The position numbers were made by a program, and so were the translations under genes. DNA of 64,000 nt from the NCBI GenBank assembly GCA_030144725.1, contig JASKMD010000029.1, forward strand, positions 3,089,939 through 3,153,938. The letters are read 5' to 3'. The DNA comes from Haematococcus lacustris (taxonomy: Eukaryota > Chlorophyta > Chlorophyceae > Chlamydomonadales > Haematococcaceae). Positions 905 through 51,130 of this stretch are shown here, piece by piece. Each line of letters begins with the position of its first letter. The stretch's first letter is position 1. The notes beneath the pieces are model-generated. The model was not told the DNA's origin, searched no databases, and saw only the letters and a list, made by a program, of their open reading frames with translations.

Positions 905-1145
905 TTTTAATCCCTACAGCCCTCATGCTACTCATGAGTTGTAATCAAACACAGGCTGCGAGATCGCTGTTGTAAAGGCTAGTGATAGTGTGCCTAGTGC
1001 CCACTTCAGCTCAGCCTTCTGGTGTGTGTGCCTCCAGGTCTACTACTAGCAAGAGCTCTACCCTACTCTATAGCTCTTACTCACACACATCCCCTTTGTG
1101 AGGAGTTTGGTATCTTGGTTTCTTGGGTTGTATTGCTGTAGCTGG
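905..1145 (-). ncRNA. Fanzor group A right end, candidate guide-RNA (fRNA) locus, copy A1
   Basis: This segment lies immediately downstream (minus strand) of the A1 stop codon and is nearly identical to 19525-19776 and, inverted, to 28289-28530. Conserved secondary-structure elements are a 7-bp stem AAGAGCT/AGCTCTT (1051-1057 with 1072-1078, 14-nt loop) and a short CTCATG/CATGAG stem near 923-940. In TnpB and Fanzor loci the guide RNA comes from the end of the ORF and the right end, so I infer that role here. No transcript evidence is available. Confidence 0.6.
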
Positions 1146-2452
1146 CTATTGCCGCCACTTGCGCCGCCACTTGCGCAACAGGGCCTTGTCAGGCAGGTAC
1201 ACCCACTCTTGGCCTGGCCTGCCTCGTCTTGGCATGGCTTGGCGGCCTTCCCAGTAGCACAGCTCAGTGGGGCGTGGGCCTGGGCCGACTGCACAGCGGC
1301 GGATGTTTAGCGCGGCTGACACGTCCCGGTCATAGAACATGCACATGATGTGGGAGTTGCATGAAGTCAAGTCATGTGCCATGTCATGTGGGATATGTTG
1401 CGGCCATGCACATGTGCAGTGCCAGGCAAGTGCTTACCTGATGTTGTGGCTTGTTGAGCTCATCAAGCCCCTGACTTGGGAGCGCTTCGCCTTGCTGTAC
1501 ACTGGCCGCAGCCACCTGGATGGACACATGGGGCAATGCACATTTGTAAGATTCATTCCTTACCTTCCCAATCTTGACCCTACCCAGCCGCCTTGACTCC
1601 ACCACCTCCCAGCACTACCCTGACCCTCCCCCACTGACCATCACCCACTGACCCTCTCACCTGAAGGACTCTGGCGGCTGTCCAGGGAGGGCCTCACTGG
1701 GGCTGCTGTAGGCTGAGCTGACCCGGCTGGTGCGGAACTCCTCCACCAGCACCACACGCCCTGCCCCGAACTGCTTCACTGCCTCCTTCCGGATCTGGCT
1801 GACTGGGACACCCCTGCAGCCAACGCTGCCGCTGCCGCTGAAGCTAGCTGCCCCATAGGCCAGGGCCAGGATGCGGTCCGGCCACCGCTTCTGTGCCTGC
1901 TTCTTGACCTGCATCCACACATGGTACAGCACACAATGGCACACATGTGTAAGGTCAGGTAGCAGCAGCAACAGAGGCAGCAACAGCAGCTGCTGGCCAG
2001 GTGAGCTGACTGTGGTTGGCTGTTGCCTAGCTCGTAGCTAGCTGCTACTGGGCCTTACCTTGGCCCAGAACGAAGCCACCACGCGCATCTTGCCACAGTA
2101 CAGCCTGAACTTGGCGTTGGCCCAGCGTTGCTTTGAGACCTCTGCCCACATGGCGTCGTACGTCGCCAGGACGGTGTCGGCAAACTGCCGGTACGAGGCC
2201 AGCGAGCTGGGCTTGCTGCTGACTCGCGACAGGGCTGTGAGCTGCGGCTTCACCTGGGTCAGCCATGTCTTGGTCGCCTGGGTCTGCCGCGTACTGCCGC
2301 TGTCCCGGTAGTACTGACCGGCTGTAAGCTTCCAGTGCCGCACGGACACCACTGTGCCGGCAGCGCTGCGCTCCTCGTGCGCCACAGTGGCCATATTGGT
2401 TTTGCCTGGGTCCACGCCAAGCCACTCCGCGTGAAGATGGGCCAGTGGGTTG
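1146..2452 (-). pseudogene. Fanzor (eukaryotic TnpB-like nuclease) group A, copy A1, 5'-truncated
   Basis: This is the C-terminal half of an RNA-guided RuvC endonuclease. Reading on the minus strand, the exon ending at 2059 carries RuvC-I (GVDPGKTNMA). Exon 1908-1661 carries RuvC-II ([15 protein letters not shown], where the other copies have VDE). A small exon 1515-1438 follows, and the last exon carries RuvC-III (YDRDVSAALNIRR) and ends KWRRKWRQ-stop at 1146. The whole N-terminal exon is missing: similarity to copy A2 stops at about 2452. The 3' splice site before the last exon, CAG in A2, reads CAT here, so correct splicing is probably lost. A1 keeps about 220 bp (end of exon 2 plus intron) that A2 has lost. 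No CxxC zinc ribbon is visible between RuvC-II and RuvC-III. Family assignment rests on the three ordered motifs. Confidence 0.85.
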
Positions 2453-3157
2453 ACTGGTTGTGTGGTTGGGATAATTGTCAGGTTTGTTTGTTACCTTTAT
2501 ATCTACCTTCAGCCCGCGTCAGGGGCTTAGTATGGATCCCATGACGAGACACTAGCCGGATCGAAGTAAGAGCCTGTGAACCTTCCTGTAGCGCCGCTGT
2601 GAGGCACTGGGACGAACGGTGGAAGAACCACAAGCAGCGGATCAATGACGGACCCAGAAATGCAGGGCCAATGGCGGAGGAGACCTATCCTCTTCCAATC
2701 ATATCACCTCAAGCTGCCAGAGTAGACCAAATACGAGGAAGGAGTCCCGCGCGGGTCGGCGCGGCAGCGGTAGCGGGATTTGTCCCGGGTGCAGCGGCGG
2801 CGGCGGAAGATGCGGCCGGTTGGTGCCCAGCAGCGTGTTGAGCAGCGCCAGCAGGCAAAGGCGTCAGCGCAGCAACGGCGGCAAACAGAGCTTGAAGGCA
2901 GTGGGCCACCTTGCAGGACCAAATCCCCGTCCCCATCGTACATATACCCCCGTACCCCTGTACGCCTGCTGTGGCGATGTCGGCCTGCTGTGCAGTTCTG
3001 CGCCACTATACATGGTGCTAATAGAGTGTGGATGGCCACCAGTAAGTTGCTGCTACGAACAGGCCTTGTGTAGCAACCAGGTGCACGGCACATGCTCAAA
3101 GCGTGTGTTTCCATTAAGAGAATATCTGAGTGGTGAGCGGGCCACTAGCATTTGACG
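2453..3157. other. Spacer between Fanzor A1 and fibrillin; likely fibrillin 5' flank
   Basis: No recognisable gene. The sequence is GC-rich with CGG runs near 2790-2815. By position, the promoter and 5' UTR of the fibrillin gene should lie in the last few hundred bases. I did not recognise a TATA box. Confidence 0.35.
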
Positions 3158-4721
3158 ATGTTAACCCGCAGCATCCCTACGCGGTTCTTCTCGCGGTACG
3201 TCAACAGTCGAGAGCCAGACGATGCACAAGATCCGGCTCATAATTTTCCTTTGTCGGGTGCAGGCCCGAGGCGGTGCGCTCCGTGCGTGCAGCAGTCTAC
3301 AAGCGCCCCGCGAACCGGAGCTCTCTTACTGCTGCCAGCTCCCAGGTATCTCTCAGGCCACTAGCTTAGGATGTGACTGAGGAGCCCAGCACCTTGGCTC
3401 TCAACCTAGGTACACATGCACGTAACATAGAACTGATATGTCGTTGTGTTGTCGTTAGTAAGCAAGTGCAGTGAAACAGGCAGCATGACCGTAAGCGGCT
3501 GAGGAGCCAGCCCTCTTGTCCCTCACTAGGGCCTCCATTTGAGCCGGATCAGAAGTACCTACTAGGTGCCACTAGCAGCCACTAACTAGATCCGACTCAA
3601 ACAGTGTTATTGGGCTGTGTGGAGTAAACCCAGTGCACACGGCACATGAGCCCGCCTACCACCTACACTATTGCCTGACCCGAGGGCTATGATGTAGAGT
3701 TGGCATGACAAACATGCACTAATTGTAAGCTGATGACAGCTCAAGATAGGGGGCACACACTACTGTGCCTCAGCAGGCTGCTGCTGCTTGGGTTTCCCGT
3801 GAAAAATACACGGTTGTGTGAAAATACACAAGTGCTCTGTTACAGCCTTGGTCGTAGGGCATTATAGTGACATAGAGGCTGGCCGGCTGAGGAGCCAGCC
3901 TGACACAAGCAGCTGGCCTGCTGGGTGCATCGCCTAATGCACATATCTGACCAACTAACAGAGGACGCACTTGGTGCTGCATGGCCAACAACAGCATGCC
4001 TACACACAGATTGACGTCTCCACGCCCCTGGAAGTGGAGCTGCCCCCTGCCCCAGAACAACCAGCTGAACCAACAGCTCAGCCCACGTACGATGACTACG
4101 AGATGCCCCTGGCTGACTGCAAAGCAGCCTTGCTGGACTCCTTGTATGGCACTGAGCGTGGCTTGACTGCAAGAAGTGAGATCCGGGCCGAGATCAACGA
4201 ACTGATTGGCCAGCTAGAGGCGAAGAACCCGACACCCAACCCCACAGAGGTGGGTGGTGACCTGCATCACTAGTTAAGAAGTCACTGCCTGGTATTTTAA
4301 GATGATGATGATCTCTTGATCTCTGACCTCACATTGTTACACTTACGATGACATTGCTAGGTAGGCAAAGGGTTGCATTGTCTGACTAGGTAACAATGCA
4401 GGTGCGGGTGTATATGCCTCTCCTTGGTGTGCTAACTGCCTCCCAGATGCTGCCTGGCTTGCCTGTCTCACCAGAGTGTGAACAGCACTTGGCGACCCAC
4501 AACCTTGCCTCAGCCATTCCAGCTCAGTGCGGTGGTCACTGCCCATGGTCACTGTATGGCAGTTGAGGGTACATAGCTTCACAACAAGTGCCCCTGGCAG
4601 TAGGCACGCCAGCTCAGGGTGGCTGTTGTTGGCAATGCTCACTGGGCGTGCAAACACCATGTGCCCATGTTTAAGGCACAGTCCTTCTCCTCATCCTCCT
4701 CATCCTCATCCTCTTCATCAT

Positions 4722-4769
<48 letters not shown>

Positions 4770-7700
4770 CAGCACACGGAATCTGCCAAACATGGCGGTG
4801 CTGCAGGCTCAGTGCATGTTGGGCACACAGTATCAGCAGCTGGAGGTAGCCGCCCATAACCCATACTGGGTTGGAGCGAGGTAGGTGTGTCCAACACCTG
4901 GGCATGCTGTGTGGGTGCTGCCCATTGGTGCAGGTGCTGGAAAAGCTGGATGGGGAGTGGCGGCTGATGTACACATCCAGCTCTGCCCTCATCACAGTGC
5001 TGGGCCTGAAGAACCTGCCCTTTGTCACGGTTGGCGACCTGACGCAGACTATCAATGTTGCTGAGCAAACTGTGGAAAACAAGGTGTGTGGTTGCTGCTG
5101 CAGGCAATGTGTGCATGAGCAGAGGCAGTATTGCCTGACGCAAAGGGCTATGATGTAGAGTTGGCATGACGAAACATGCACTAAGCGTAAGCTGAGAACA
5201 GCTCAAGATAGGGGGGGGCACGCACACTACTGTGCCCCAACAGGCTGCTGCGGCTGCTGGTGGGCTTTGGGAGGCTTGTCTCGCAGCCGCTTGTACCCTA
5301 AGCCTGGGTACTCCTTGCCCTTGGCGGGCAGCCCTCCCCTGCTCTGGCCACCAGCACAGCTCCAGTGGGCGCCACCTGCTCTCCCCAATGCGCTGTATGT
5401 TCAGAGCTGCATTGCAGTCCCTGTCCAGCCACCTGCCTGGCTGTGGTGTTGGCTTGGCCTTGGCAGCCTTGGTGGGCTGGGTGGGCTCAGCTGCCTGCTC
5501 AGCCTCGGTGCGCTTGTTGCGCTTGGCTGGCGGGGGAGTGCTGGGCCCAGGCTCTGAGGCTGCTGCTGGCTGTGTGGCTCCCTGGCTGCTGCATGGGGCC
5601 TGAGGCATGGTGCGGGGGGCCACCACCGGGCACCACATCATGCCCCGCACTGGCTGGTCACGCTGCTGGCTTCAGGCTGAGCGCACTAGGCGGAGGTCTA
5701 CCTGTCCTGCTGGGGGCTTCCAGTCTGCAGGCCTGGTGGCCCTGCGATTGTTCAGCTGCCTCTCACAGGGCTGCTGGCCATTCACCGCTGAGCTGACCCG
5801 GCTGGTGCGGTGCTCATCCACAAGCACCACCCTGCCCCGCCGCTGGTTTGTGCCCCTGGACCTGCACACCACCTTGCGGCAGGCTCGCAGCACCACATCA
5901 GCACCCCAGCCACCCCCAGTGCCAATGCCAGCTGCTCCAGAAAATACCACCAGCTGCTTGGAACGCCCATGCCGCTCGATGGACACCTCCACCATGTCCT
6001 CCTCCAGCTGCAGCCATGCACACAAGGCACATACAGGGTGAGCAGCGCGGAGCTCACCGGACTGCACAGTTGCAGCGGACCACACCACGACTACAACGAA
6101 CCTTGCTTTCGCGGGCTTTCAGTCGGAAGCGGCTCTTGCTCCGGCACTGGGCCGCTTCCACGGAGGCATTGCGCCACTAGGCTCATACCTGCTCATACCT
6201 ACTTATACCCGTGTGTCACTCACTCTCGCACCTTCAAAGGGCAAGCCTTCAAAGGGCAAGCCTTCAAAGGGCACCTCCAAAGAGCACCTCCAAAAGGGTC
6301 TCCATAGGCTGTGTAGCGTCAGCAGGCCAGCATGGTACTGCCCTACCAGCTGCCCATCCCTAACAACAGCCACCAGCCAGCACCAGCCAACAGTCAGTGC
6401 CAGCCACCACCAGCTGCCTAGCCACGACCATCCTTATCACCACTATGCCAGCAATGTGACCAGCCAGTCCAGGGCCGCATGTGGGAACATCAAAGCATGC
6501 TGCCATTGCCGCCCAACACAGTGTTGTGAACATGTCATTGCTCTGCATTTCTTACTATCAGAGCATGTATGCTCCTGGCATGGTCAGTGTTGCAGGGCCA
6601 TGTGTGCACCCAGGTGCGTGAGAGGCGGTGTGTGTGAAGGGCGGTCACTACCATGCCAGCAGCCGCAGGCCCTTCAGCAGATGGTCTCAGATTTCCTTGC
6701 AGCCCAAAAACTGCGGCAGGCAGTGTGGGCAGCCTTGGCCCTGTCCTGGCCTGCTTGGGTGTGCCCTGCAGTCTTCTCAACCATGGGAAGCTTGGCTGGC
6801 AGGGAAGTGTGGGGCCCAGATCTGAGCCTGCTGCCTGGGCTGCTTAGCGGGGGCCATGCTGGGAAACTTGCTTGGCACACCAGGGCAGCACAACGAGGGC
6901 GCATCAGGGTCCCTCACTGCTCCTGCATCACAATGGCTGCTAACGTGGCCTCCTGCTGGGGGTGTCAAAGGCTGGGTACAGGGTCTGCTTGGAATCATGG
7001 GGTTGGAGGGCAACCGGGTTTGCTGCCACAGGTCCATGCATGTGCATGCCTCATGCCTCATGCCACATGCTGCATGCAGCAAGGCAGGCCCAGCAGGCCC
7101 TGCAAGGAACCTTTCTGCAGCGTGGCAGTGGCAGTGGCAGGGGCCAGCACTGTCACTGCAGGGTGCAGGTGATTGACACACAGGGCTGCTGCCGCACTGT
7201 GGCTGGGTTAGGGGTAGGTCACCAAACGAACAGTGAACACCTCCACGGCAAACATAAGCTGAGCCAGACACCACACTGCAGCTACATCAGGCATGTCAGC
7301 CCTTTGGCTAGGGCTGGCTGACACAGCAGGGCACTTACAGACTCCAACACTCTCACTGGGGTCCTTCCAGACTCTTGGCACTGCACCCACTCTGCCTCTA
7401 GCCCTAGCAACTGACTCATCAGACTACAAATAGCTCCACGCTTGCCCACCTCGACATTGCAGCCATACCAGGCCGACGGTCACAATGGTGTTAGCACCAT
7501 AAACAACATCTCAACGTTGACTGGGACCCTATGGTACTGCAATACCCTGCAGCTCCAGCAGCTTCCAGCAGCTTCCAGCTCGCCCTGTGTGCAGGTGGTC
7601 CTGTCTGGCCCCTTGTCGCGCACAGCCCTCACCACCAGGGCCAGCTTTGAGGTGCGCAGCCCCAAGCGCCTGCAGCTGAAACTAGAGCGAGGCAGCATTG

Positions 7701-9181: not shown

Positions 9182-9374
9182 AGGTTCGTGTCCCCAGCCG
9201 TGACGTGAGCCCTAGACGTGAGTTACGCGCTGTGAGATAAGCCGTCGCTCCTGTTGGCTCCATCGCAGTGTCTCGTTCCGCCCAAGGCAAGCAACGACAG
9301 GATCGTCGGGATGGCTGGACCACGCGTCGACGTCAGGTGCCAGCCCCGCCCTTATGTGTCCCCGCACTGTTTGT

Positions 9375-9421
9375 GTTGACCCCGCCTTGTGTCTTGGGCC
9401 AAGACACAAGGCGGGGTCAAC
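9375..9421. repeat. Perfect 47-bp palindrome (23-bp arms, 1-bp centre)
   Basis: The arm from GTTGACCCCGCC to TGTCTTGG is followed after one G by its exact reverse complement. Such a structure could be an element terminus, a fold-back junction or an assembly artefact. It abuts the start of the hAT transposase frame. Confidence 0.95.
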
Positions 9422-11430: not shown

Positions 11431-11479
11431 TGTGGGATATGTTGCATTCAGGTCCTGCAAGGGAGTATGCTGTAATTGT

Positions 11480-11615
11480 ATAGAGTTGATTGGCGATTTT
11501 TGCGATTTCTTTTGGTTTATATTAATTAAACTATTAATTAATTGATTATTATATATTAAAAGTAATAAAAAACTCCTGTTTTGGTGTTTTTTATTACACT
11601 GAGTAATACGTCTTT
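11480..11615. other. AT-rich island
   Basis: Sharply AT-rich stretch (runs of TTAATTAA and ATTATATATTAAAA) in GC-rich DNA, downstream of the hAT-1 satellite. A similar but shorter AT-rich patch lies at 15230-15290 near the 3' end of the complete hAT element. It may be the 3' end region of hAT-1. Confidence 0.5.
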
Positions 11616-11689
11616 GGCGAATCGCCCAGCACTGGTCTTGGCCTGTCAAAATGGCAACTTTGCTTGGCTGCAGGTCATCAAGGTCCCCG

Positions 11690-12481
11690 AGGGCGCAGTG
11701 CTGCGCGGCTGCAAGAAGACGAGGCGCAAGCTGCGGGAGCACCTCCGGCTGCGGGCTGAAATTCACTCTTCTTTGGTGCAGCTACCATTGGCACTGGGGG
11801 TGGGTGGGGTGCTGACGCGGTGTTGCGTGCTTGCCGCAAGGTTGTGTGCAGGCCCAGGGGCACAGACCAGGATGGGGGCAGGGTGGTGCTCGTGGATGAG
11901 CACCGCACCAGCCGGGTCAGCTCAGCAGTGAATGGCAAGCAGCCCTGTGAGGAGGAGCTGAACACACTCAGTGCCACAAGGCCTGCAGGCTGGAGGCCCC
12001 CAGCAGGGCAGGTGGAACCCCGCCTGGTGCGCCCAGCCTGGAGCCAGCAGCGTGGCCAGCCAGTGCGGGGCCTGGTGTGGTGCCCTGTAGTGGCCCCCCG
12101 CAAGCCCCCACAGGCCCCACGCAGCAGCCACGAGGCCACACAGCCAGCAGCCTCAGAGCCAGGGCCCAGCACTCCCCCTCCAGCCAAGCGCAGCAAGCCG
12201 GCAGCTGAGCCCACCAAGGGCAAGGGCAAGGGCAAGGCTGCCAAGGCAAAGCCAGCACCACAGCCAGGCAGGTGGCTGGACAGGGACTGCAATGCAGCTC
12301 TGAACATGCAGCGCATTGGGGAGAGCAGGTGGCGTCCACTGGAGCTGTGCTACTGGCCAGACCAGGGAGCTCTGCCAGCCAAGGGCAAGGAATACCCTGG
12401 CCTGGGCTACAAGCGGCTGCGAGACAAGCCACCCAAGGCCCAGCAGCAGCAGCAGCAGCAGCGGCCTGCTGAGGCACAGTA
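11690..12481 (+). pseudogene. Fanzor group B, copy B3 (best-preserved group B C-terminus)
   Basis: Reading from about 11753 in one frame: [21 protein letters not shown], Ruv[21 protein letters not shown] at ~11885-11940, PVRGLVWCPVV, a Pro/Ala/Lys-rich linker with PPPAKRSKP and KGKGKGKAAKAK, Ruv[19 protein letters not shown] at ~12270-12315, [25 protein letters not shown], a Gln run and stop at 12479-12481. The two C-terminal catalytic acids (Glu of DEH, Asp of DRD) are present. No RuvC-I exon was recognised upstream, where the hAT-1 debris lies, so the copy is 5'-truncated or its exons are unrecognised. Only one Cys lies between RuvC-II and the linker, so no standard zinc ribbon is seen. It leads directly into an intact right end. 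Confidence 0.85.
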
Positions 12482-12748
12482 GTGTGTGCCCCCCCCTATC
12501 TTGAGCTGTCATCAGCTTACAATTAGTGCATGTTTTGTCATGACAACTCTACATCATAGCCCTCGGGTCAGGCAATAGTGTAGGTGGTAGGCGGGCTCAT
12601 GTGCCATGTGCACTGGGTTTACTCCACACAGCCCAATCACACTGTTTGAGTCGGATCTAGTTAGTGGCTGCTAGTGGCTGCTAGTGGCACCTAGTAGGTA
12701 CTTCTGATCCGGCTCAAATGGAGGCCCTAGTGAGGGACAAGAGGGCTG
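12482..12748 (+). ncRNA. Fanzor group B right end, candidate guide-RNA locus, copy B3 (reference copy)
   Basis: A 267-nt conserved non-coding block directly after the B3 stop. It has an AGCTG-TCAT-CAGCT hairpin near the start and, at the end, a 13-bp stem TTTGAGTCGGATC (12645-12657) with GATCCGGCTCAAA (12706-12718). It closes with CCCTAGTGAGGG and AGAGGGCTG. Five copies in the window stop being similar at the same base (here 12748), which marks the element end. The RNA role is inferred. Confidence 0.7.
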
Positions 12749-15457: not shown

Positions 15458-15960
15458 CTATGCATTGTTGCGGGCCCGGCCATCAATATCCCGGCGGTAC
15501 TCCGCAGCCCGGTGCAACCGTTGCTTGACCTTTGCCAGCCGGTCATTGACCCGCTTGTAGCCCTGCTGGTACTCCTTGCCAATGGGGGGCAGAGCCTCAA
15601 GGTCATCCCATTGACACAGCTCTATGGGGCGCTGCCTGCTCTCCCCAATGCGCTGCAAGTTCAGGCACCCATTGGTGTCCCGGTCCAGCCACCTGCCCCA
15701 AGGGGGGGCCTGGGGTCGTGGCACTGGGCCAGGTGCTGCAGGGATGGGCTGGGCGGGTGGGGCCTGGGCTGGGGGAGGGGGGGGGCCTTGGGCAGGGGCA
15801 GGGGGGGGGGGTCCTGGGCAGGGGCAGGGGGAGGGGGGGCCTGGGCGGGGGGGGCCTGGGCGGGGGGCGGGGGAGAAGGGTTGGGCGGCACCTGATGGCC
15901 ACTACCACTGGCGCCTGCAGACATGGGAAGGCACAGCACACGCATTTGATGCACGGAGTC
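15458..15960 (-). pseudogene. Diverged Fanzor C-terminus, copy B4
   Basis: Minus-strand frame 15724-15458 has RuvC-III GRWLDRDTNGCLNLQRIGES, then RPIELCQW, IGKEYQQGYKRVNDRL and a stop. It aligns with the group B end but differs at many positions (DTNGCLNL for DCNAALNI, and no Gln tail). Upstream on the minus strand is a very long Pro/Ala linker (15725-15900), matching the position of the Pro-rich linker in B2 and B3. No RuvC-II was recognised. The sequence after the stop is interrupted by the hAT element at 15387. It may represent a third Fanzor subgroup. Confidence 0.72.
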
Positions 15961-16770: not shown

Positions 16771-16856
16771 GGTAGCAGGCAGCACTGCTGTCACGGCCAT
16801 TTGCTGGCATCACTCATGTGTGCAGCATCAGCTGCTCAGCTCGTACAATGGCCCAG

Positions 16857-17114
16857 GAGCAGCAGCGGCCTGCTGAGGCACAGTAGTGTGTGCCCCCTAT
16901 CTTGAGCTGTCATCAGCTTACAATTAGTGCATGATTGTCATGCCAACTCTACATCATAGCCCTCGGGTCAGGCAATAGTGTAGGTGGTAGGCGGGCTCAT
17001 GTGCCATGTGCACTGGGTTTACTCCACACAGCCCAATAACACTGTTTGAGTCGGATCTAGTTAGTGGCTGCTAGTAGGCTCAAATGGAGGCCCTAGTGAG
17101 TGATAAAAGGGCTG
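16857..17114 (+). ncRNA. Fanzor group B right end only, copy B5
   Basis: Begins with the last codons of the ORF (Gln/Arg, then PAEAQ and TAG at 16884-16886) and then follows the B3 right end. The stem loop is shortened: the left arm TTTGAGTCGGATC is kept and only GGCTCAAA of the right arm. It ends at the common base (17114). The rest of the nuclease is missing, so this is a severely 5'-truncated copy. Confidence 0.65.
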
Positions 17115-19368: not shown

Positions 19369-19524
19369 GTTGCTCCCAGAACTGTGGCGTTGCGAGTACG
19401 CGGTTGCTAGTGCGCGGTGCGCTCGCTAATGTTTAACAACAACACATGCGTGGTGCACAGCAGCGTCTCTTTTTGACGCAGTATAGCTCGCCATATCTGC
19501 ATGCTATCCATTTGAGCCTAACAA

Positions 19525-19776
19525 GTTTTAATCCCTACAGCCCTCATGCAACACCAAAATAAAGCATGAGTTGTAATCAAACACAGGCTGCGAGATCGCT
19601 GTTGTAAAGGCTACTGACAGTGTGCCTAATGCCCACTTCAGCTCAGCCTTCTGGTGTGTGTGCCTCCAGGCTACTACTAGCAAGAGCTCTACCCTACTCT
19701 ATAGCTCTTACTCACACACATCCCCTTTGTGAGGGGTTTGGTATCTTGTTTTCTTGAATTGCCTTGCTGTAGCTGG
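19525..19776 (-). ncRNA. Fanzor group A right end, candidate guide-RNA locus, copy A2
   Basis: Follows the A2 stop codon. Stems: CTCATGC (19543-19549) with GCATGAG (19564-19570), 14-nt loop; AAGAGCT (19682-19688) with AGCTCTT (19703-19709), 14-nt loop. A CCCC/GGGG hairpin lies close to the stop codon. Highly similar to copy A1, and recognisable in A3 where the first stem keeps pairing through a G-U change. Guide-RNA role inferred. Confidence 0.65.
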
Positions 19777-22475
19777 CTATTGCCGCCACTTGCGCCGCCA
19801 CTTGCGCAACAGGGCCTTGTCAGGCAGGTACACCCACTCTTGGCCTGGCCGGCCTGGCTTTGGCATGGCTGGGCGGCCATCCCAGTAGCACAGCTCAGTG
19901 GGGCGTGGGCCTGGGCCGACTGCACAGCGGCGGATGTTCAGCGCGGCTGAGACGTCCCGGTCGTAGAACCTGCACATGGTGTGGGAGTTGCATGAAGTCA
20001 AGTCATGTGCCATGTCATGTGTCACCTCATGTGGGATATGTTGCAGCCATGTACATGTGCATTGTCTGGTCATTGCTTACCTGATGTTGTAGCTTGTTGA
20101 GCTCATCAAGCCCCTGACTTGGGAACGCTTCGCCTCGCTGTACACTGGCCGCAGCCACCTGCATGGACACATGGGGCAATGCACATTTGTAAGATTTTTC
20201 CTTACCTTCCCAATCTTGACCCTACCAAGCCGCCTTCACTCCACCACCTCCCAGCACTACCCTGACCCTCCCCCACTGACCCTCTCACCTGAAGGACTCA
20301 GGCGGCTGCCCAGGCAAGGCCTCAATGGGGTGGCTGTAGGCTGAGCTGACCCGGCTTGTGCGGAACTCATCCACCAGCACCACACGCCCTGCCCCGAATT
20401 GCTGCACTGCCTCTTTCCTCATCTGGCTGACTGGGACACCCCTGCAGCCAATGCTGCCGCTGCCGCTGAAGCTAGCTGCCCCATAGGCCAGGGCCAGGAT
20501 GCGGTCCGGCCACAGCTTCTGTGCCTGCTTCTTGACCTGCATCCACACATGGTACAGCACACAGTGGCACACATGTGTAAGGTCGGGTATATCAGCAGCA
20601 ACAGAGTCAGCAACAGGAGCAACAGCAGCTGGCCAGGGCCAGGGCGCGACAGGGCTGTGAGCTGCGGCTTCACCTGGGTCAGCCATGTCTTGGTCGCCTG
20701 GGCCTGCCGCGTAATGCCGCTGTCCCGGTAGTACTGACCGGCTGTAAGCTTCCAGTGCCGTACGGACACCACTGTGCCGGCAGCGCTGCGCTCCTCGTGC
20801 GCTACAGTGGCCATGTTGGTTTTGCCAGGGTCAACGCCAAGCCACTCCGCGTGAAGATGGGCCAGTGGGTTGACTGCGTCCAAGCCCCTGCCCATCCGCG
20901 GCAGCTCTGCGGGTGGAGCTGCAGGCTTGGGCCGCAGGAACATCACGCTGATGGCGACTCCATCGGTGTGCACGATTTGCGCGAAGTTGTGCTTGGGGCT
21001 AGCGAGCTTCTGGCGGCGAGGGTCAGGCAGCAATGCATCCCATCGGTTGGCCACCTGCAGCCACCATATGCACATACCAAGGCACTTCATTAGCTTGTGT
21101 GGGCTCACAAGGCAGGCACAAGGCAGCTGACTGCAGGCTCACACGGCAGCTGACGGAGCACCAGAGGACTGGCTAGCACCTGACTGCAAGGAGCACTCAC
21201 GTGGCTGTCTTTGGGCCCTGCAATGAAGTTGCCCGGCACCGCTGGGTCAGGTAGGGCACCGTTCCTGAACTTCTTCAAGGAGGTGACCCCTGCCTCCGTC
21301 AGCACCCCCAGCATGCCGGCGTCATGCATCATGCCGTATAGGCCCCTGGTGTCGATGAAGATGTGCCGAGCCTGGCACTTGCTGGTGGGAGTGAGGGCAT
21401 AGGGTGTGGGGGGGCGGGGGGGCCTTGGCAGCAGCCCTGGGTTGGTGAGCTCAGCCTGCTGCCAAGGCACCATATCCAGCTGCCAGGCTGCCATGGCTGC
21501 CTCCATCTCTCTGGTAGTGTGCACCGCATGGCGCAGCAGCCGGCCCCGGTTGACTGGATCCTCCACCCAGTCGTCATCCACCCTCTCCCCCTCCTCAAGC
21601 CCCAGCAGGCCTCGTTGCAAAGCCACCTCAGCCTGCATGGCTGGAGTCGGCACCACCCCACCCTGATCCAGCAGCCAGCTGACATCCAGGCCGCACACCA
21701 TGCGGCGCACATAGGTGCACGCCCGCTTTGACCAGGCTGGCAGGTGCCCACCACCCACCCCCCAGAACCCAAATCTGCGCCGGTGTTCCTCAGTGCCCAG
21801 CAGGACCTTTGCCCCAGCCAGGGACACAGACTTCTTGAGCCTGCCAGCGAAGAGCAGCGTTAGCATGTTGCTGAAAGCTGTCTCCAGCTGCTTGCCGACG
21901 TGGTCCACCATGTTGGTGTCAGACAGGTGGCGGGGGATTGCTGCGAGGCGATCGCGAAGGTCAGGGTGCTCTGCCAGCACGGCAGCCACTGCCGCGTTTG
22001 GCTGAGTGTTCGCGCCGTTTCCGGGCGGGCCCCGGACCAGCTGCAGGAACAGGTTCCTGCAGCTCAGGTCCGGGATGGCTGCCTGGGAGACTGGGATGTC
22101 TGTGTACACGGGCTGGTCGTGCAGGCCCAGCGGGTCGGCTACGCGAATGGTAAACAAGCCGCGCACGAGTAAGCCCAACAGCAGGCTGGCGAGCACCCCA
22201 CGCTCGCTGATGGCCTCCACTCGTGGCTGCACCGCGTCGGCCAGGAAGGCATCCCAAAGCTCTTGCGGGAGGTGGTCGATGAGGTGGGCTATCTTACACT
22301 TCCTGCCGTGGTATGTGTTATCCCTATCGCGGGCAGCGCGGGCCTCTCCGGAAACCTTTCTATTTTGCTGCGCCTCGGTGAGATCCGGCTGTAGTGCCTC
22401 GTCGCGGTCCTCAATGTCACTGTCCGGGTCCTCCGGCACTGGCCTAGGCACGGTTCGTCTTTTTTTCTTAGCCAT
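19777..22475 (-). pseudogene. Fanzor nuclease group A, copy A2, nearly complete
   Basis: RNA-guided DNA endonuclease of the Fanzor/TnpB superfamily. Exon 1 (22475-21201, 425 codons) starts MAKKKRR, a nuclear localisation signal, and carries the long N-terminal region. Exon 2 (from 21054) has FAQIVHTDGVAISVMFLRPK and RuvC-I GVDPGKTNMATVAHEE. Exon 3 (20536-20289) has Ruv[21 protein letters not shown] small exon 20158-20081 has QVRGLMSSTS, and the last exon (19969-19777) has RuvC-III FYDRDVSAALNIRR, ELCYW and ends KWRRKWRQ. All three catalytic acids (D, E, D) are present, and splice sites after exon 3 are intact. The lesion is a ~220-bp deletion at about 20640 that removes the end of exon 2, its donor site and part of the intron, relative to A1. 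No CxxC zinc ribbon is seen. Confidence 0.9.
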
Positions 22476-22645
22476 AGAAAACAACATCGTCAAGCCATCA
22501 CAAATACTAGGAATTATCGGTTTTGTTTGTTTGCATTTGCATCTTCACATGAACATAATAGGATTGTTGGACCTGCACTGAAAAGGACCATCGCATCTTT
22601 GCCTGGCAGGGAAGTGCTGTACTCTAACGGCTGTCACTGCTAGGT
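22476..22645. other. Upstream flank of Fanzor A2
   Basis: Should hold the A2 promoter and left end. No inverted repeat to the right end and no clear TATA box were recognised. Confidence 0.3.
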
Positions 22646-23020
22646 CAGCCCTCTTGTCCTTCGCTAGGGCCACCATTTGAGCCTACTATTTGAAGTACCT
22701 ACTATTTGAATACTATTTGAATACTATTTGAATACTATTTGAATACTATTTGAATACTATTTGAATACTATTTGAATACTATTTGAATACTATTTGAATA
22801 CTATTTGAATACTATTTGAATACTATTTGAATACTATTTGAATACTATTTGAAGTACCTACTATTTGAAGTACCTACTATTTGAAGTACCTACTATCAGC
22901 CACTAGCAGCCACTAACTAGATCCGACTCAAACAGTGTGGCTGTGTGGAGTGTTGAACCTACCACCTACACTAGTGCCTGACCCGTCAGGGCTATGATGT
23001 AGAGTTGGCATGACAAAATT
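22646..23020 (-). ncRNA. Fanzor group B right end only, with minisatellite in its stem-loop
   Basis: Minus-strand copy of the group B right end with the common terminal base (22646). The left arm TTTGAGTCGGATC and the terminal CCCTAG block are kept. The loop is expanded by a tandem TACTATTTGAA array. The ORF is absent. A TTTGAGCCTAACAA motif at about 23018-23031 recurs at the far side of copy A2 (about 19512-19525). Confidence 0.6.
22684..22890 (+). repeat. 11-bp minisatellite (TACTATTTGAA), about 15 or more units
   Basis: Tandem TACTATTTGAA units, flanked by GTACC-containing variants. The array sits in the loop of the group B terminal stem and appears to have grown from a GAAGTACCTACTA-like segment that other copies have once. 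Confidence 0.95.
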
Positions 23021-23031
23021 TGAGCCTAACA

Positions 23032-26167: not shown

Positions 26168-26269
26168 CCAGTACCTTATTGCCGACCCCCACCCCCCTAC
26201 GAGGGTTGGGTGATAGGTGTTGGCATGGAACACATGTTTTGATGTAAGCAACAGCTTACGCATTGCCTG

Positions 26270-27556: not shown

Positions 27557-27699
27557 GGTGAATGGGTGGAATGCAACATGGTGGGCATGTCACAGCTATG
27601 TGCTATGGCATGCGGCCAGCCACACGTGGGATGGGTGCTGCAGCAGTCAACGCTCAGCAGGTCACACGGGGGTGCAGTCATCTGTGCCGCGGCCTGCCC

Positions 27700-28288
27700 G
27701 GACAGCTGTGCCGCGGCCTGCCCGGAGAGGGCGAGCGCACTCGGCCGAGTGCAGCAGTCGCTGCCGTGCTGGCCGCGCACCCCGACCTCTGTGCCCGCCT
27801 CGAAGCTATCCCACGCTACCTGTCTGACACTAACATGGTGGACCACGTCGGCCAGCAGCTGCAGACCGCTTTCAACAACATGCTCACGCTGCTCTTCGCT
27901 GGCAGGCTCAAGAAGGCAGTGTCCCTGGCCGGGGCCAAGGTCCTGCTGGGCACCAACGAGCACCAGCGGAGGTTTTGGTTTAGGGGGCTGGTTGGTGGGC
28001 ACCTGCCAGCCTGGTCCAAGCGGCAGTGCACCTATGTGCGCCGCGTGGTGTGAGGTCACCTGGCTGCTGCGGGAGGGTGGGGTGGTGGTGACTGCAGCCA
28101 TGCAGGCTGAGGTGGCTTTGCCGCGGAGCCTACTGGGGCTTGAGGAGGGGGAGAAGGTGGATTATGACTGGAGGACCCAGCAATGTGTGTGACAGGATGT
28201 GTGTGGCACAGGCACTGGCACTGGCACAGGCACACACACCAGAAGGCTGAGGTGAGTGGGCATTAGGAACACTGTCAGTCGGCAATAG
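27700..28288 (+). pseudogene. Fanzor group A, copy A3, internally deleted
   Basis: Plus-strand homologue of the A2 N-terminal exon: AVAAVLAAHPDLCARLEAIP, YLSDTNMVDHVGQQLQTAFN, LLFAGRLKKAVSLAGAKVLL and WSKRQCTYVRRVV. An 8-bp deletion near 28048 shifts the frame. The homology continues as TWLLREGGVV, then LLGLEEGEKVDYDW, and stops near 28190. The sequence then jumps almost directly to the stop codon (28286-28288) and right end, so all three RuvC motifs are missing. This is a non-autonomous, internally deleted derivative. Confidence 0.85.
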
Positions 28289-28535
28289 CCAGCTACAGCA
28301 ATACAACCCAAGAAACCAAGATACCAAACCCCTCACAAAGGGGATGTGTGTGAGTAAGAGCTATAGAGTAGGGTAGAGCTCTTGCTAGTAGTAGACCTGG
28401 AGGCACACACACCAGAAGGCTGAGCTGAAGTGGGCAGTAGGCACACTGTCAGTAGCCTTTACAATGATGAACTCGCAGCAAGGTTCGATTCCAACTCATG
28501 CTTTGTTTTGGTGTAGCGTGAGGGCTGTGGGGCTC
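28289..28535 (+). ncRNA. Fanzor group A right end, candidate guide-RNA locus, copy A3
   Basis: Plus-strand copy of the group A right end. Hairpins: CCCC/GGGG (28329-28332 with 28340-28343), AAGAGCT/A-GCTCTT (28356-28362 with 28377-28383), and CTCATGC paired with GCGTGAG (G-U tolerated) near 28496-28523. It contains a GGTTCGATTCC motif (28482-28492), identical to a Pol III B box, where A1 and A2 read differently. Confidence 0.6.
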
Positions 28536-28761
28536 AGGAGTTGCCGCCAGAGTGAAAAAGTTATAATCGCCAGTCAACCAACTAAACTCCCGCATCTCTT
28601 CGTCCCTCCCACGCATTGGGAAATGGGGAAACACTGCCTATCCCCGTTTCCAATCCCCCTCTCCCGTCGCTCAGCCATTGGAAAGGAGACTGCGGGACAA
28701 TCGTCAGGACTTTCAGTAGCACACAGCTTACCTTAAGGGCTGAACCCCGAGTTCATCAAAT

Positions 28762-36214: not shown

Positions 36215-36258
<44 letters not shown>

Positions 36259-44939: not shown

Positions 44940-47562
44940 ATCCAGCATGGTCCCTTCTCTGCTTGCAAGGTCTCGCAATATTTGTGGAGACCACTCGCAT
45001 CCAACCACTCAGCCAGCACGGACAAGGTCAGCTCCAGGGCCCTCACGCCCCCTTGCATGGTTATGAGGCCGCATGCATGCCTGGCCAGCTTGTAGGCAAC
45101 CCCCCCATCCTTCATGCGGTTCATGCATGTTCTGTTGCCTGGGCCCCGCAGCAGGGGGGATGGGACCTGCCAAGAAGCTTCTGCTGCTGCCAAGCCGGCA
45201 GGAGGGAGGGGGGGCCAGGAGGTGAGGGAGGAGGGAGCAGGCAAGCCGGCAGCAAGGCAAAGGGGGCCCTGTGCCTACCTGGGGGGGGCCAACACCATGT
45301 CCACCACATGCATCACCCCACCACCATTTGGGTTTGCCATGTCAAAGGCCACAACCCTGCGCCTGAACTTGCAACACGGGCTCCCTTCCTGGCACCCTGC
45401 AAGCATGGAGCCATGCAAGGATGCAAGCATGCAGGGGGGTATAGCAGCTGGCACCTCCCCTGCGTGCACAAACCACAACAGTTTGCTGCGACTGCAGCGT
45501 TGCGTGGGCTGACCCGTTGCATCCAGCGTCCGCTGACCACACCCACAGAACAGCAGCAGCAGAGCAGCAGCAGCAGCCCGGGCCAGTGGGCTTGAACACC
45601 AACACACAGGCTGGGGCGCTACTCAGGGCATGTTTGGTTGCTCTGGTGCCGCCCCTGCTGCTGCTGTCAGCCCTGGGGGGCGTTAGGCTCACACACCCAC
45701 ACACACTGTGTGTACTCCATCCTCACCCTGGCACACTCTCACACTATGACCACACGTTGCATGCCGCCTGACTGCCTGACCCCCCCAGGCCCTAGCCAGG
45801 CCTCCATGGCTCACATGGGGGGGTGGAACAGAGATAAGCTGGTGCCGTTCAGGGCCGTGTCCAGCTTCCTGCAGCAGCAGGGAGAGAGCCCACACAGCCC
45901 ATGTGTGTGGGTCCGTGTAAGGGTTGTGGGGGAAAGGACAGGGGGCAGGGGGCAGGGGGCAAGGGGCAGGGGGCTAAGGAGAAAGTGAGGGCGGAGAGAA
46001 GAGGTCATGACATGGCTCCAAACTACGGCCTGCCCCGCTCACGAATTGCCTGTGGGGATGTCGCCCAGCTTCAGCAGCTTGCCTGGAATGACTGCGAGCA
46101 GCATGACAAGTGCAGCCACAGCACTGGTGGCCTTGTTGGTGGGTAGAGGGCACAGTAGGTGATGCCGCATGATGGATCAGACATAATGTGGGCTGTTGAC
46201 AACTGCCTTGTGATGCTCCTGAACAACTGCAGGCAGGGAAGCCGCTGCAAAACATCGGCGAGGAAGGCAGGGGCAGCAGGGGCTGAGGGTGCGCTGCCTG
46301 TGTGGCTGCTGCTTCTGATGGCAGGCTGTGGCTCGTGACCTACTGTGGTGCAGCAGCAGGGCACGGGTGGAGTTAAGCCGCTGGGGGGTCAGCAGGTCAT
46401 CTACGGAGTTCAGACGCTGCAGCCGCAAGTATGTCTCCACTCCCTACAGGAGCAGCAGAAGGTGGGGGGTAAGGGGGGAGAAGGGGTCATGCTACCTGTC
46501 ACCATTCAACTATTGTCATGCTACCTGTCACCATTAAACAATGACAATGTCAAGCATTGGGCCAGGGCCAGGGCCTGGGCCAGGACCAAGACCAGGGCCA
46601 GGGCCAGGGGCAGGGGCAGGGGCAGGGCCAGGGCCTGGGCCAGGACCAAGACCAGGGGCAGGGCCAGGGGCAGGGCAGGGCCAGGGGCGGGGGTGGGGGC
46701 GCCATGTCATGCATTTAGGACAGAGCCTGTGTCTTCTGCATGGCCATGCGCCCCATGCTGCGTGGGAGCTGCGGACCTCTCGTCTGTGCCCTGTCGGAGT
46801 GCCCTTTGGGAGTGTGCCCTTTGCGGCTGCGAGACAAGCCACCCAAGGCCCAGCAGCAGCAAGCCCCCCCCCATTTGAAGCTGTCATCAGCTTACGCTTA
46901 GTGCATGTTTTGTCATGCCAACTCTACGCATGCCCTGTCACAGGGGTCAGGTAATGATGTAGGTGGTAGGCGACCATGACCATGTGTATGCCATGTGTAG
47001 GCCATGGCATACACATGCGATGGGAACTCCACACAGGCAAAAACACCGTTTTGTAGTGGTTCACAATTAGTGTGTTCGACTGCAATGAATGCTCAAGGTT
47101 GAGAGCCAAGGTGCTGCGTGGGGGCTGCCAAAGTTTTGAATAAGTTTTGTTGGGCTACATAAGTAGTGTTGCTCCTCCCCTTGCAATGCCGGCCATGGCC
47201 ACTCCGTGGACTTCACCGTGCGTGTGTGTGCCCCCCATATGAGCAGCGTAGGCTGCCCCCCAGCAGTGCCTGGTGGTGTGCGCCCCACCTACGTAGTCAT
47301 TGGGCATGAAAATGGTGCTGCCAGGCACTGAGACGTTGAGGGTGAGGAAGAGCTGTGTGGCGGTGCTGGTTGACTTGGTGTTGCTGTCAGCTCCTGGGCT
47401 GCTCTGGCCCTGGAGGAGCTGCCTGCAGCCCAGCAGCAGCAGTGACAGCAGCAGCAGTGAGGGGCCCAGGGGGGCAGGGGGGTAGGGGGGCAGGGGGGTA
47501 GGGGAGCAGGGGGTAAGGGAGACAGGGGTTTGCTGGCCTGCTGGTGCCTGGGGTGTGAGCAT
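44940..47562 (-). CDS. Fasciclin-like (FAS1-domain) protein, probably secreted or membrane-anchored
   Basis: Adhesion or extracellular-matrix type protein. Minus strand: exon 47562-47293 has a hydrophobic signal/anchor (LGPSLLLLSLLLLGC) and then TATQLFLTLNVSV and GSTIFMPNDY. Exon 46443-46344 reads GVETYLRLQRLNSVDDLLTP, then LNSTRALLLHH. Later pieces are VQEHHKAVVNSPHY (near 46225-46175), VIPGKLLKLGDIP (near 46090-46050), KLDTALNGTSLSLFHPP (near 45870-45815) and VVAFDMANPNGGGVMHVVDM, then VLAPPR (near 45345-45285), the diagnostic FAS1 end (NGVxHVIDxVLxPP). A further piece, LSVLAEWLDASGLHKYCETL (near 45015-44950), looks like the start of a second FAS1 domain. Exon limits after the second are approximate, and the 3' end is not found. 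Intron 1 contains a Fanzor right-end relic. Confidence 0.65.
46556..46690 (+). repeat. GGGCCAG-type low-complexity repeat in FAS1 intron
   Basis: Degenerate 6-bp GGGCCA/GGGGCA tandem repeat with a ~65-bp higher-order duplication. Confidence 0.9.
46825..47045 (+). ncRNA. Fanzor group B C-terminal codons plus right end, degraded (in FAS1 intron 1)
   Basis: Starts with codons for RLRDKPPKA, then AAGCTGTCATCAGCTT and the right-end core as far as the ACTCCACACAGG region. The terminal stem is lost. Antisense to the FAS1 gene. Confidence 0.55.
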
Positions 47563-47934: not shown

Positions 47935-48153
47935 GTTGGCTGCCAAAGCCAAGCCAGCACCACAGCCAAGGCTGCCAAGGCCAAGCCAGCACCACAGCCA
48001 GGCAGGTGGCGCCCAGTGGAGCTGTGCTACTGGCCAGAGCAGGGAGCTCTGCCAGCCAAGGGCAAGGAGTACCCTGGCCTGGGCTACAAGCGGCTGCGAG
48101 ACAAGCCACCCAAGGCCCAGCAGCAGCAGCAGCAGCCTGATGGGGCACAGTAG
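47935..48153 (+). pseudogene. Fanzor group B, copy B8, C-terminal fragment with RuvC-III deleted
   Basis: Reads AAKAKPAPQPGRW, then directly [34 protein letters not shown], a Gln run and TAG (48151-48153). Compared with B3, 57 bp encoding [10 protein letters not shown] plus flanks are missing. The deletion lies between two copies of GCAGGTGG, so it looks like short-repeat slippage or end joining. The frame is kept, but the third catalytic Asp is gone. Confidence 0.8.
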
Positions 48154-48427
48154 TGTGTGTGCCCCCCCCCCTTTGTTGAGCTGTCATCAGCTTACATTAG
48201 TGCATGTTTGTCATGCCAACTCTACACAATAGCCCTTAGGGGCCAGGCAATGGTGTAGGTGGTAGGCACTCATGCACCATGTCCATGTGCACTGGGTATA
48301 CTTCACACAGCCCAATAACACCATTTGAGTCAGGCCACTAGTGGTCCCTAGTATTCCCGCTAGTGGTCGCTAGTGGCCACTACTGGTCCGGCTCAAATGA
48401 AGGCCCTAGTGAGGGACAAAAGGACTG
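48154..48427 (+). ncRNA. Fanzor group B right end with variant stem, copy B8
   Basis: Follows the B8 stop and ends at the common base (48427). The terminal stem is TTTGAGTCAGGCC (48324-48336) with GGTCCGGCTCAAA (48385-48397). It pairs at 12 of 13 positions although the inner sequence differs from B3 (GGATC/GATCC). Confidence 0.65.
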
Positions 48428-49474: not shown

Positions 49475-50290
49475 CTAGCCCGGTTGACCTCCCTCTCCAG
49501 CCACTTAGGATCCACCACCTCCCCCTGACCCAGCCCCAGCAACCTCCGCTGCTTGGCCACCTCATACCGCATAGCCAGTGGGCAACACCCCACCCGCACC
49601 CTGTAGCCAGGACACCTCCTTCCGCTGCACACTCCGCGCCACCCAGCTGCGCTAACGCTCAGTCCAGGCTGCCCTCCCACCCACGGGCAACCCAAAGCGG
49701 CGTTGGTGCTCATGGGAGCCAGCGATGACCCGGGCTCCAGCCAGAGCCACCGCTTGCTGAAGCCTACGGGGGAACAGCTCGGTGAGGCTCCAACTTGTCT
49801 CCAACTCTATGTCCACGTCGTCCACGGTGTTGGTGTCGTGCTGATAGCGAGGAACGGCGTCGAGGCGGGCGTGGAGGTACGCGGCCAACACATCCTTCAC
49901 AACTGCGCCGGGCCGAGAGAGTTCGCCGACAGGAGTTAGCCCACGGCAGAGATGCAGGAACAGGTCGCGGTCTGCCAGATTTGAGCTGACCACGGCCTCA
50001 AATGGGATGTCGTCGAAGGCTTCCTGCCCATCCGCAAGCACCCTGACCCGCGTGAACCAGCTGTGCACCATGAGGCCCAACAGCACGCTCCCGAGCAGCG
50101 CCCTCGTGCTGCAGGCCTCCACCCAAGCCTTGATTTGCTTGATGAGCCGCGCCTCAATCACTTCGGACGCCACGACCGCTCCCGCCTTAGACCCACGCGA
50201 CCACCCCCGTCATCACGGTATGAAGCTTACATTTCTTCCCATGCCAGGTATTGTTGTTGTGGCGGGCCCAGCGCGCTTCGCCGCTGGCCT
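49475..50290 (-). pseudogene. Fanzor group A N-terminal relic, copy A4
   Basis: Minus-strand similarity to the first exon of A2: NNTWHGKKCKLHT (near 50250), LGSVLLGLMVHSWFTRVRVL, NLADRDLFLHLCRGL, AVPRYQHDTNTVDDVDIELE, QAVALAGARVIAGSHEHQRR and FGL, EVAKQRRLLGLGQGEVVDPK and WLEREVNRASLL. Divergence is high, and the order is conserved with several frame breaks. No RuvC part or right end remains. This is the oldest-looking copy. Confidence 0.72.
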
Positions 50291-50581
50291 TGTTGTTCTG
50301 CTACCCCTGGCTTGCTGCAGGCTGAGCATCGAGCTCGCGGTCCACTTCACTGTGCGAGGCTCTGTCTGTTTCGCAGCATCCCCTACCAAGCGCTACATCG
50401 TTATATCAGTTCTATGTTGAATGCATGCGTACCTAGAACAGTTCTTTGCTTCCATCCACCAACTACCTCGCCAGGCCACATCCATAGTATGTGGAGCAGT
50501 GGCAACCGCAGCCCTAGGAACACCCCATCCCCGCTGCTGGCTGCCGACCGCCCACAGCCCACCACCAGCAACCTCTTTGCT

Positions 50582-50651
50582 CTCTGACGGCTTCGCATCG
50601 TTCTTGTAGTAGGACGCTCACGGCTGCAGCCCTAAGTCACTTGCAAGCGAA
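50582..50651 (+). repeat. Direct repeat left of Fanzor relic A5 (partner 51233-51302)
   Basis: 70 bp with roughly eight mismatches to the partner (shared CTCTGACG, TTGTAGTAGG, CACTTGCAAGCGAA). Confidence 0.9.
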
Positions 50652-50689
50652 GTGCAAGTGGTAGCTCTTTCCCCTCAACAAAAGTTTTT

Positions 50690-51130
50690 TTCTCTGTTTC
50701 CGGGCAGGCCGCGGCACAGGTGTAGGTACAGGTTCCTGCAGCTTAGGTCCGGGATGGCTGCCTTGAAAGACTGGGATGTCCGTGTACACGGGCTGGCCGT
50801 GCTCGTCGAGCTGGTCGGCTACGTCCAGGGAAGACAAGTCCCGAACGAGGGAGCCCAGCCGCAGGCTGCCGATAACTGCCCGCTCGCTACAGGGTCTTCA
50901 TTCGTAGCAGCATAGCCAGGAGCAAGGCGGCCCACAGCGCTTGCGGGAGGTGGCTGGTAAGCTAAGCAAGCCGTGATACGTACTGTCTCTATCGCAGGCA
51001 GCGCGAGCCTCTCCTGAAGCCTTTCTCTTGCGTTAGGCGTCAGTGAGTTGTGCCTCGAGACACTCTAACAATTCTAAACCCTGTTCCTCCGGCACTGGAC
51101 TGGGCACAACCTTGCGCCTTTAAGTTCGCC
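50690..51130 (-). pseudogene. Fanzor group A N-terminal relic, copy A5, upstream of PTOX
   Basis: Minus-strand fragment with GQPVYTDIPVFQGSHPGPK and LQEPVP, matching HDQPVYTDIPVSQAAIPDLS in A2, and more degraded matches up to about 51120 (VPSPVPEEQG-like, compare VPRPVPEDPD at the A2 start). Lies between two 70-bp direct repeats. Confidence 0.65.

Follow-up and report, generated by a model that had tools for sequence, protein, structure and literature searches.

The Fanzor loci of a 64-kb stretch of the Haematococcus lacustris genome (contig JASKMD010000029.1, positions 3,089,939 to 3,153,938; in what follows, the window) are best explained as copies of a multicopy DNA element that encodes a Fanzor1 protein of 789 to 795 residues without a zinc ribbon. 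We give a probability of about 0.6 to this reading, in which the protein would act as an RNA-guided nuclease that aids the retention and spread of its element, and in which the element is copied at the DNA level. Judged from the sequence, the loci are real and far beyond chance, since the group A copies A1 and A2 are 91 to 97% identical in DNA in a self-comparison of the window, near-identical proteins have been annotated independently in H. lacustris, and the genome (307.9 Mb in 597 contigs) holds 1,265 occurrences of the group A right-end 17-mer GCATGAGGGCTGTRGGG and none of the reversed pattern. Every copy in the window is defective: A1 is 5'-truncated, A2 and A3 carry deletions, B2 has an in-frame stop, and the rest are fragments. 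Because no copy is intact, the window is a graveyard of copies rather than a working system. An earlier description drawn up from the letters alone (the sequence-only reading) had spoken of a Fanzor system; its Fanzor lineage, introns, two groups and many copies stand, but "system" was too strong a word for loci that are all broken, which it had overlooked.

Elements of this kind have been known from Chlamydomonas since 2013. The possible novelties are that the ribbon was lost while selection continued, that insertions lie behind TG/TTG, and that the copies are so numerous. Fanzors, which are related to CRISPR nucleases, are eukaryotic RNA-guided nucleases under development as genome editors, and a ribbonless lineage that keeps its RuvC acids and remains under selection, with a predicted TTG-like motif, would show whether the ribbon is needed for cutting.

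Gene structure and intact copies

Read side by side, A1 and A2 give a group A gene of five exons separated by GT-AG introns. The same splice junctions are present in annotated H. lacustris proteins, which bears out the spliceosomal introns of the sequence-only reading. A1 begins inside exon 2 and still has the splice donor that is missing from A2, and the protein P0007 (789 residues) starts, like A2, with MAKKKRRTVPRPVPEDPDS. Of the adaptation to a nucleus that had been proposed, the introns and the conserved basic N terminus stand, and it is by this basic start that the protein would enter the nucleus. The intact paralogues that the sequence-only reading had suggested looking for do exist. 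In a first look at the genome that gave 12,673 candidates, 44 of 56 scored exon-1 matches had no stop, and 13 of 20 copies selected from these for having exon 1 open yield, once spliced, a complete protein (five exons, 789 to 795 residues), a proportion that describes these selected copies and not a genome-wide rate. Two homologue searches, represented here by the best 120 of 253 and the best 120 of 809 matches, yielded 240 proteins, all named H. lacustris. In P0003, P0011, P0013, P0122 and others, Fanzor pieces are fused within gene models to other Pfam domains or to further Fanzor pieces; such models are either annotation artefacts or exonised pieces of the element.

Assignment to the Fanzor1 lineage

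In the passages of Yoon et al. (2023) on sequence motifs, a zinc finger is reported for many TnpBs and Fanzors, and the Fanzor fingerprint is a DPG motif together with a glutamate six residues before the finger. DPG is present at RuvC-I, as DPGKTN in A1 and A2 and as strict DPG[KN][TS]N in 88 of 120 A proteins. The glutamate stands at the alternative position of Fanzors (E-FRTSRV-S, spacing kept in 108 of the 120) and not at the TnpB site, a difference from the group of TnpB (ISDra2, ISFba1) and Cas12f/Cas12-phi. Strict patterns for the first aspartate, the glutamate and the last aspartate were matched by 88, 108 and 92 of the A proteins, respectively, and all three by 64. Among 22 aligned proteins, the D and G of the RuvC-I motif and the glutamate are invariant, and the last aspartate is nearly so.

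Two predicted models, both of low confidence, point in the same direction. With Foldseek against the PDB, Fanzor1 alone fills ranks 1 to 5 for both low-confidence models; VIA likewise placed Fanzor1 in the top six rows for the first, and in the top two rows for the second, nearly tied with Cas12 relatives. The best structural matches extend over both lobes and are SpuFz1 (Spizellomyces), GtFz1 (Guillardia) and PpFz1 (Parasitella), which have the same D-E-D RuvC triad but are only 8 to 16% identical in the structural alignments. In the model, D500 lies at the end of strand 1, E674 just past strand 5, and D731 at the start of the helix that follows the RuvC strands. The acids of the triad, whose placement the sequence-only reading had proposed to examine by structure prediction, are thus predicted to sit in RuvC-fold positions, and its Fanzor assignment is upheld and narrowed to the Fanzor1 lineage, both models being best matched by Fanzor1 structures. 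No Fanzor or TnpB match was returned by Pfam for four A2 pieces, by NCBIfam for eight proteins, or by sequence searches of the PDB with an A2 piece, an A chimera and a 44-sequence profile.

An older definition fits less well. Where Bao and Jurka (2013, PMC3627910) define the Fanzor1 motif, D-X(125,275)-[TS][TS]-X-X-[C4 zinc finger]-X(5,50)-RD, they call it strictly conserved. Its D-X(125,275)-[TS][TS] part is present (in P0007, D500 and T677-S678 with 176 residues between them), and its C4 part fails. Because the 2013 motif fails but the 2023 fingerprint and the predicted fold are both found, we call the protein a zinc-ribbonless variant of the Fanzor1 lineage.

Loss of the zinc ribbon and selection

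The loss of the zinc ribbon, as read from the alignments, is the most unusual feature of these proteins and was overlooked in the sequence-only reading. In the 108 of 120 A proteins with a recognizable RuvC-II, not one has a cysteine at either position of the first CxxC. E-FRTS is followed in group A by RVSSA and then by Y, R, D or other residues, and position six after the catalytic glutamate is S, rarely K or G, and never C. Group B has a cysteine at the first position once (P0124, a deletion product) among 130 motif occurrences of the 20 commonest types. The third cysteine survives as GLMC in part of group A, and the motif RG[LM]xxxP retains it in 132 of its 133 B occurrences; the fourth is absent from the 22 aligned proteins. 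SpuFz1, as described in the account of its NUC domain (PMC10432273), has a conserved CCCC zinc finger there, which is absent from the Haematococcus proteins.

The zinc-ribbon model PF07282 has no match in the six-frame translated genome. A precomputed PF07282 label stands on 8 of the 120 listed B proteins, six of which were rescanned. The cut-off was passed by three of the nine proteins scanned, all of group B, by way of a 14-residue stretch around RDCNAALN that fails the cut-off alone. We set the labels aside as proof of membership; P0122, P0124, P0126 and P0129 carry several Fanzor pieces per gene model. Because the ribbon has been lost, the profile search suggested in the sequence-only reading does not settle membership.

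Selection was estimated as the ratio of nonsynonymous to synonymous rates (dN/dS; NG86, ratio of means) on chosen subsets of copies from the two subgroups of group A. For exon 1 the ratio is 0.275 within subgroup 1 (91 pairs), 0.321 within subgroup 2 (10 pairs) and 0.426 between them (70 pairs), values biased downwards by the choice of open copies. For exon 2 it is 0.222 between subgroups (6 pairs). Exon 3 gives 0.31 within subgroup 1. Between subgroups (56 pairs) the whole exon gives 0.78, and again 0.78 when L031, L037 and L047 are left out; the part up to RTS gives 0.48, and the part that follows RTS, only 21 codons long, gives 1.89. These ratios therefore indicate constraint on the N-terminal lobe and the RuvC parts, and either drift or rapid change in the segment that used to be the ribbon.

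Several of these observations weigh against a ribbonless nuclease. The three PF07282 passes and the A protein P0069, which matches the whole domain below the cut-off (E 0.008), tell against the loss of the ribbon, and the failure of the C4 part of the 2013 motif tells against the assignment to Fanzor1. If the protein had descended from Fanzor1 and were no longer an RNA-guided nuclease, being a passenger or having some other DNA- or RNA-binding role in an element that spreads by other means, one could understand why a ribbon called strictly conserved in the motif definition of PMC3627910 is gone from all scored A proteins (0 of 108), why its former segment is unconstrained (dN/dS of 1.9 after RTS), and why one sublineage has VHEF in place of VDEF. 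We nevertheless think this unlikely, given a D-E-D triad that varies little or not at all among the 22 aligned proteins, the retained spacing of DPG and the alternative glutamate, purifying selection on exons 1 and 2 and the first part of exon 3, and intact copies that are common among those fetched.

Element ends and mode of copying

The element has a fixed 3' end. All 15 complete 3' ends read ...GATT(A/T)AAACTTG (subgroup 1) or ...TTCAG(G/A)AGTTG (subgroup 2), and the flanks beyond them differ among copies, except for L041 and L044; the 5' ends vary from copy to copy. To find target duplications, we sought the sequence that follows the 3' end in the 1.1 kb upstream of the start codon, leaving out the element's own TTG, in A2 and 18 of the 20 loci (L036 and L037 have no right end in the fetched stretch). 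A duplication of at least 9 nt (lengths 9 to 12) was present in 10 of these 19 copies versus 1 of 340 mismatched pairs. As L041 and L044 share their 3' flank, the ten positives represent nine independent sites at most. None came from L033, L035, L038 or L039, in which the 3' end was placed where similarity stops. The 5' copy of the duplication is preceded by TG in 10 of 10 (7 TTG, 2 CTG, 1 ATG), and the group A element itself ends in TTG. The 12-bp duplication of A2 delimits an insertion of 3.5 kb with a B-type right end inside it. Parts of that B-type segment are common to L033 and its last ~20 letters recur in L044; L039 and L041 have in common with A2 only the sequence after it. It also holds an 11-bp tandem repeat, TACTATTTGAA (22667-22886). 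No target duplication was found for A1 and A3 (best 8 and 7 nt), and duplications were not established for the five B ends of the window, where a 15-nt repeat (3508), one of 9 nt (48427) and three of 6 to 7 nt were seen and mismatched pairs also gave long repeats. The word AGGGCTG, with which the B right end closes and which is also contained in the A right end, is seen again at the 5' starts of L045, L042 and L044 or close to them, possibly through template switching or as a terminal repeat.

With 3' ends that are fixed, 5' ends that vary and short duplications, the Haematococcus copies fit the one-ended transposition that was put forward for CRe-1, CRe-2 and CRe-3 of Chlamydomonas reinhardtii. 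In the sections of PMC3627910 on these elements, they encode Fanzor1 with spliceosomal introns (5 or 10 exons), show frequent 5' truncation and internal deletion with 3' ends in excess and almost always intact, and have variable target duplications (about 7 to 19 bp) behind a T-rich tetranucleotide. The Haematococcus elements differ in their motif (TG/TTG, not TTTT or a T-rich tetranucleotide) and, going by that description of the CRe elements, in lacking the C4 ribbon. As to scale, the 1,265 exact group A right ends stand beside CRe duplications counted over 150, 70 and 35 loci in the same sections. The sequence-only reading had thought that this family might be undescribed; its kind, with introns, 5' truncation and lone right ends, was in print for Chlamydomonas in 2013, but the ribbon loss may be new. 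A further parallel comes from Auxenochlorella, where PMC12633428 reports a Fanzor-encoding element as the most abundant repeat of a green alga; it is described there only as uncharacterised, so that the likeness is one of description. In the library of papers searched (among them PMC3627910, PMC10711439, PMC10432273, PMC11423790 and PMC12633428), we found no Haematococcus Fanzor in print; the sole paper listed there for both Fanzor and Haematococcus is PMC12633428, whose Fanzor passages are silent on Haematococcus.

Variable 5' ends behind a fixed 3' end, and duplications of 9 to 12 bp behind TG/TTG for an element ending in TTG, would also fit if a retrotransposon enzyme acting in trans had made the copies by target-primed reverse transcription, with a 3-nt TTG overlap between element end and target. 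We consider this route quite improbable. An intron lies between exons 1 and 2 in all 18 of the 20 fetched loci in which both exons were located, and the listed exon-2 matches begin, with one exception, at residue 425, apart from the preceding exon-1 match. No spliced copies were seen, though no dedicated search for intronless copies was made, and the 3' end has no poly(A) or T tail. Because the introns persist, we favor copying at the DNA level.

Such copying could be the work of a Helitron2 transposase. The elements would then be non-autonomous Helitron2 transposons that depend for their movement on a RepHel protein encoded by their host genome, as in Chlamydomonas, an explanation that is compatible with an RNA-guided Fanzor1 nuclease and that we hold tentatively as a serious possibility. 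The whole syndrome recalls CRe-1, CRe-2 and CRe-3 (introns, 5' truncation, an excess of 3' ends, duplications mostly in truncated copies), the 3' end has a subterminal hairpin, and of 18 Helitron_like_N matches in H. lacustris, 7 are strong. The target motif does not fit as well, being TG/TTG here and not TTTT; moreover, only two of the seven strong RepHel matches (C2 and C22) could be compared in position with the listed A right ends, and none lies within 100 kb.

Right end and proposed mechanism

The last 190 to 260 nt of the element are predicted to fold into several stems and a terminal structure, after which eight bases stay unpaired before the flank. Stability relative to shuffled sequences is modest (z of -1.89 and -1.64, and -2.53 for B). 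A change on both sides was seen in one of 50 pairs, and this near-absence is due to the copies being much alike. In 14 right ends, the stem CTCATGC/GCATGAG has its inner pair broken in 2 and its other six pairs kept in all 14. We regard the right end as a candidate omega-RNA scaffold and nothing firmer; Rfam gave no match on four loci. Subgroup 2 ends carry the word GGTTCGATTCC within their last 70 nt (L046 and L048 to L050), with GGTTCAATTCC in L047 and degenerate forms in subgroup 1. The word resembles the B box of RNA polymerase III promoters. A tRNA-like reading of the subgroup 2 right end was considered and dropped, with no Rfam match and with GGTTCGATTCC lacking in subgroup 1.

In the mechanism that we propose for the element, the Fanzor1 protein would bind an omega RNA derived from the structured right end, and the guide would be the DNA just downstream of the element, starting with the duplicated target sequence. 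Cutting would take place at the target, beside a TTG-like motif (TTG or NTG), in element-free copies of the locus, and repair would restore or spread the element. Copying itself would run at the DNA level, beginning at the fixed 3' end and ending at variable points, in the manner suggested for the elements of Chlamydomonas and with trans-acting replication proteins. In the published accounts of the Fanzor1 proteins GtFz1, SpuFz1 and PpFz1, as far as these describe targeting, an adjacent motif is required and the guide lies at the right end of the element. Since the element end carries the same TTG, the right junction is itself a potential target; the motif that counts would then have to be longer, or the junction would be cut as well.

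We also speculate, as a long shot, that this Fanzor1 clade works without a zinc ribbon and directs the insertion of its own element. The omega RNA would end in the TTG that precedes most targets, the protein would recognize TTG/NTG, and RNA- or motif-directed nicking would start a one-ended replicative insertion that leaves duplications of 9 to 12 bp. If so, the nuclease would be part of the insertion machinery, beyond any role in retention. How Fanzor, guide and transposition are linked in algae has been an open question since 2013, and the large number of insertions whose target sites can be read makes it directly accessible to testing.

Fanzor loci of the window

With 12 A- and B-type proteins of H. 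lacustris as tblastn queries, together with the self-comparison, ten clusters of coding pieces were located in the window, belonging to the homologous groups A and B (Table 1); the sequence-only reading had counted at least nine. The right ends without coding sequence that it had described were recovered as well, although the one at 22646-23017 belongs to the A2 insertion, and all the motifs that it named lie where it had placed them.

Table 1. Positions of Fanzor-related features in the window
Feature	Position	Strand	Coding cluster (tblastn)	Remarks
A1, 5'-truncated group A copy	901..2456	-	1149-2454	full exon 2 end kept; last-exon acceptor AG lost; DPGKTN 2395-2412; RuvC-II is VEEFRTS; DRDVSAALN 1305-1331
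A2 insertion, group A, to exact 3' end ...GATTAAAACTTG	19522..23017	-	19780-22475	3' end common to genome copies, flank then diverges; 12-bp duplication
A2 5' target-site duplication, TTAGGCTCAAAT	23018..23029	-		CATCATTG before it; duplication test
B-type right-end segment in 5' part of A2 insertion	22646..23017	-		holds 11-bp tandem repeat
A2 exon 1	21201..22475	-		basic start MAKKKRR (22455-22475), helical N-terminal lobe, 425 codons, open; same exon in P0007
A2 exon 2 remnant	20645..21054	-		RuvC-I DPGKTN (20815-20832); 3' end and splice donor deleted, ~208 bp relative to A1
A2 exon 3	20289..20536	-		RuvC-II VDEFRTS (20354-20371); RVSSAY replaces first CxxC
A2 exon 4 (WLRPVYS...RGLMSST)	20081..20158	-		third zinc cysteine substituted
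A2 exon 5	19777..19969	-		RuvC-III DRDVSAALN (19936-19962) and stop; motif, reading frame
A2 right end, structured 3' region, candidate omega-RNA scaffold	19522..19776	-		subterminal hairpin CTCATGC/GCATGAG; sequence, folds of related ends
A2 3' target-site duplication, TTAGGCTCAAAT	19510..19521	-		duplication test
A3, group A, large internal deletion	27685..28543	+	27685-28171	right end of second A subgroup, ...CAGGAGTTG
Decayed N-terminal piece, third A sublineage (VHEF type)	49483..50360	-	49483-51119 (one cluster with next)	54-64% identity to P0079
Decayed N-terminal piece, group A	50690..51104	-	as above	self-comparison, tblastn
B2, C-terminal B fragment	5126..6031	-	5263-6010	in-frame TGA; right-end sequence present; B motif 5399-5425 (-)
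B N-terminal scrap	9215..9399	+	9215-9399	tblastn
B3, B copy with internal deletion	11575..12748	+	11575-12440	RuvC-II/III; B motif 12279-12305 (+); right end finishing ...AAGAGGGCTG
B coding scrap	15539..15697	-	15539-15697	self-comparison, tblastn
Diverged B copy	26269..26724	-	26326-26706	DEFRTS 26488-26505 (-); motif, self-comparison, tblastn
B C-terminal scrap and right end	48002..48427	+	48004-48117	self-comparison, tblastn
Lone B right end	3508..3788	-		self-comparison
Lone B right end	16854..17114	+		self-comparison
B right-end scrap	46823..46985	+		self-comparison

Other features of the window

Two adjacent open reading frames (ORFs) at 9380-11128 appear to resemble a hAT-type transposase; in Pfam, the first gave only a sub-threshold RPAP1_N match and the second none. 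An ORF at 12797-13897 (-), which appears to resemble the tail of a non-LTR (long terminal repeat) retrotransposon polyprotein, has no Pfam match. Ten large ORFs of the window outside the Fanzor copies match no Pfam family above the cut-off. Upstream of B3, a tandem array with a 49-bp unit (~eight units, 11076-11467) has units that are 95 to 97% alike in mid-array. An inverted repeat pair at 3791-4074 and 8812-9095 (284 bp, 98% identical) has one copy abutting a lone B right end. Runs of CAG/CTG triplets are numerous, among them those at 36176-36297, 57725-57810 and 62873-63351.

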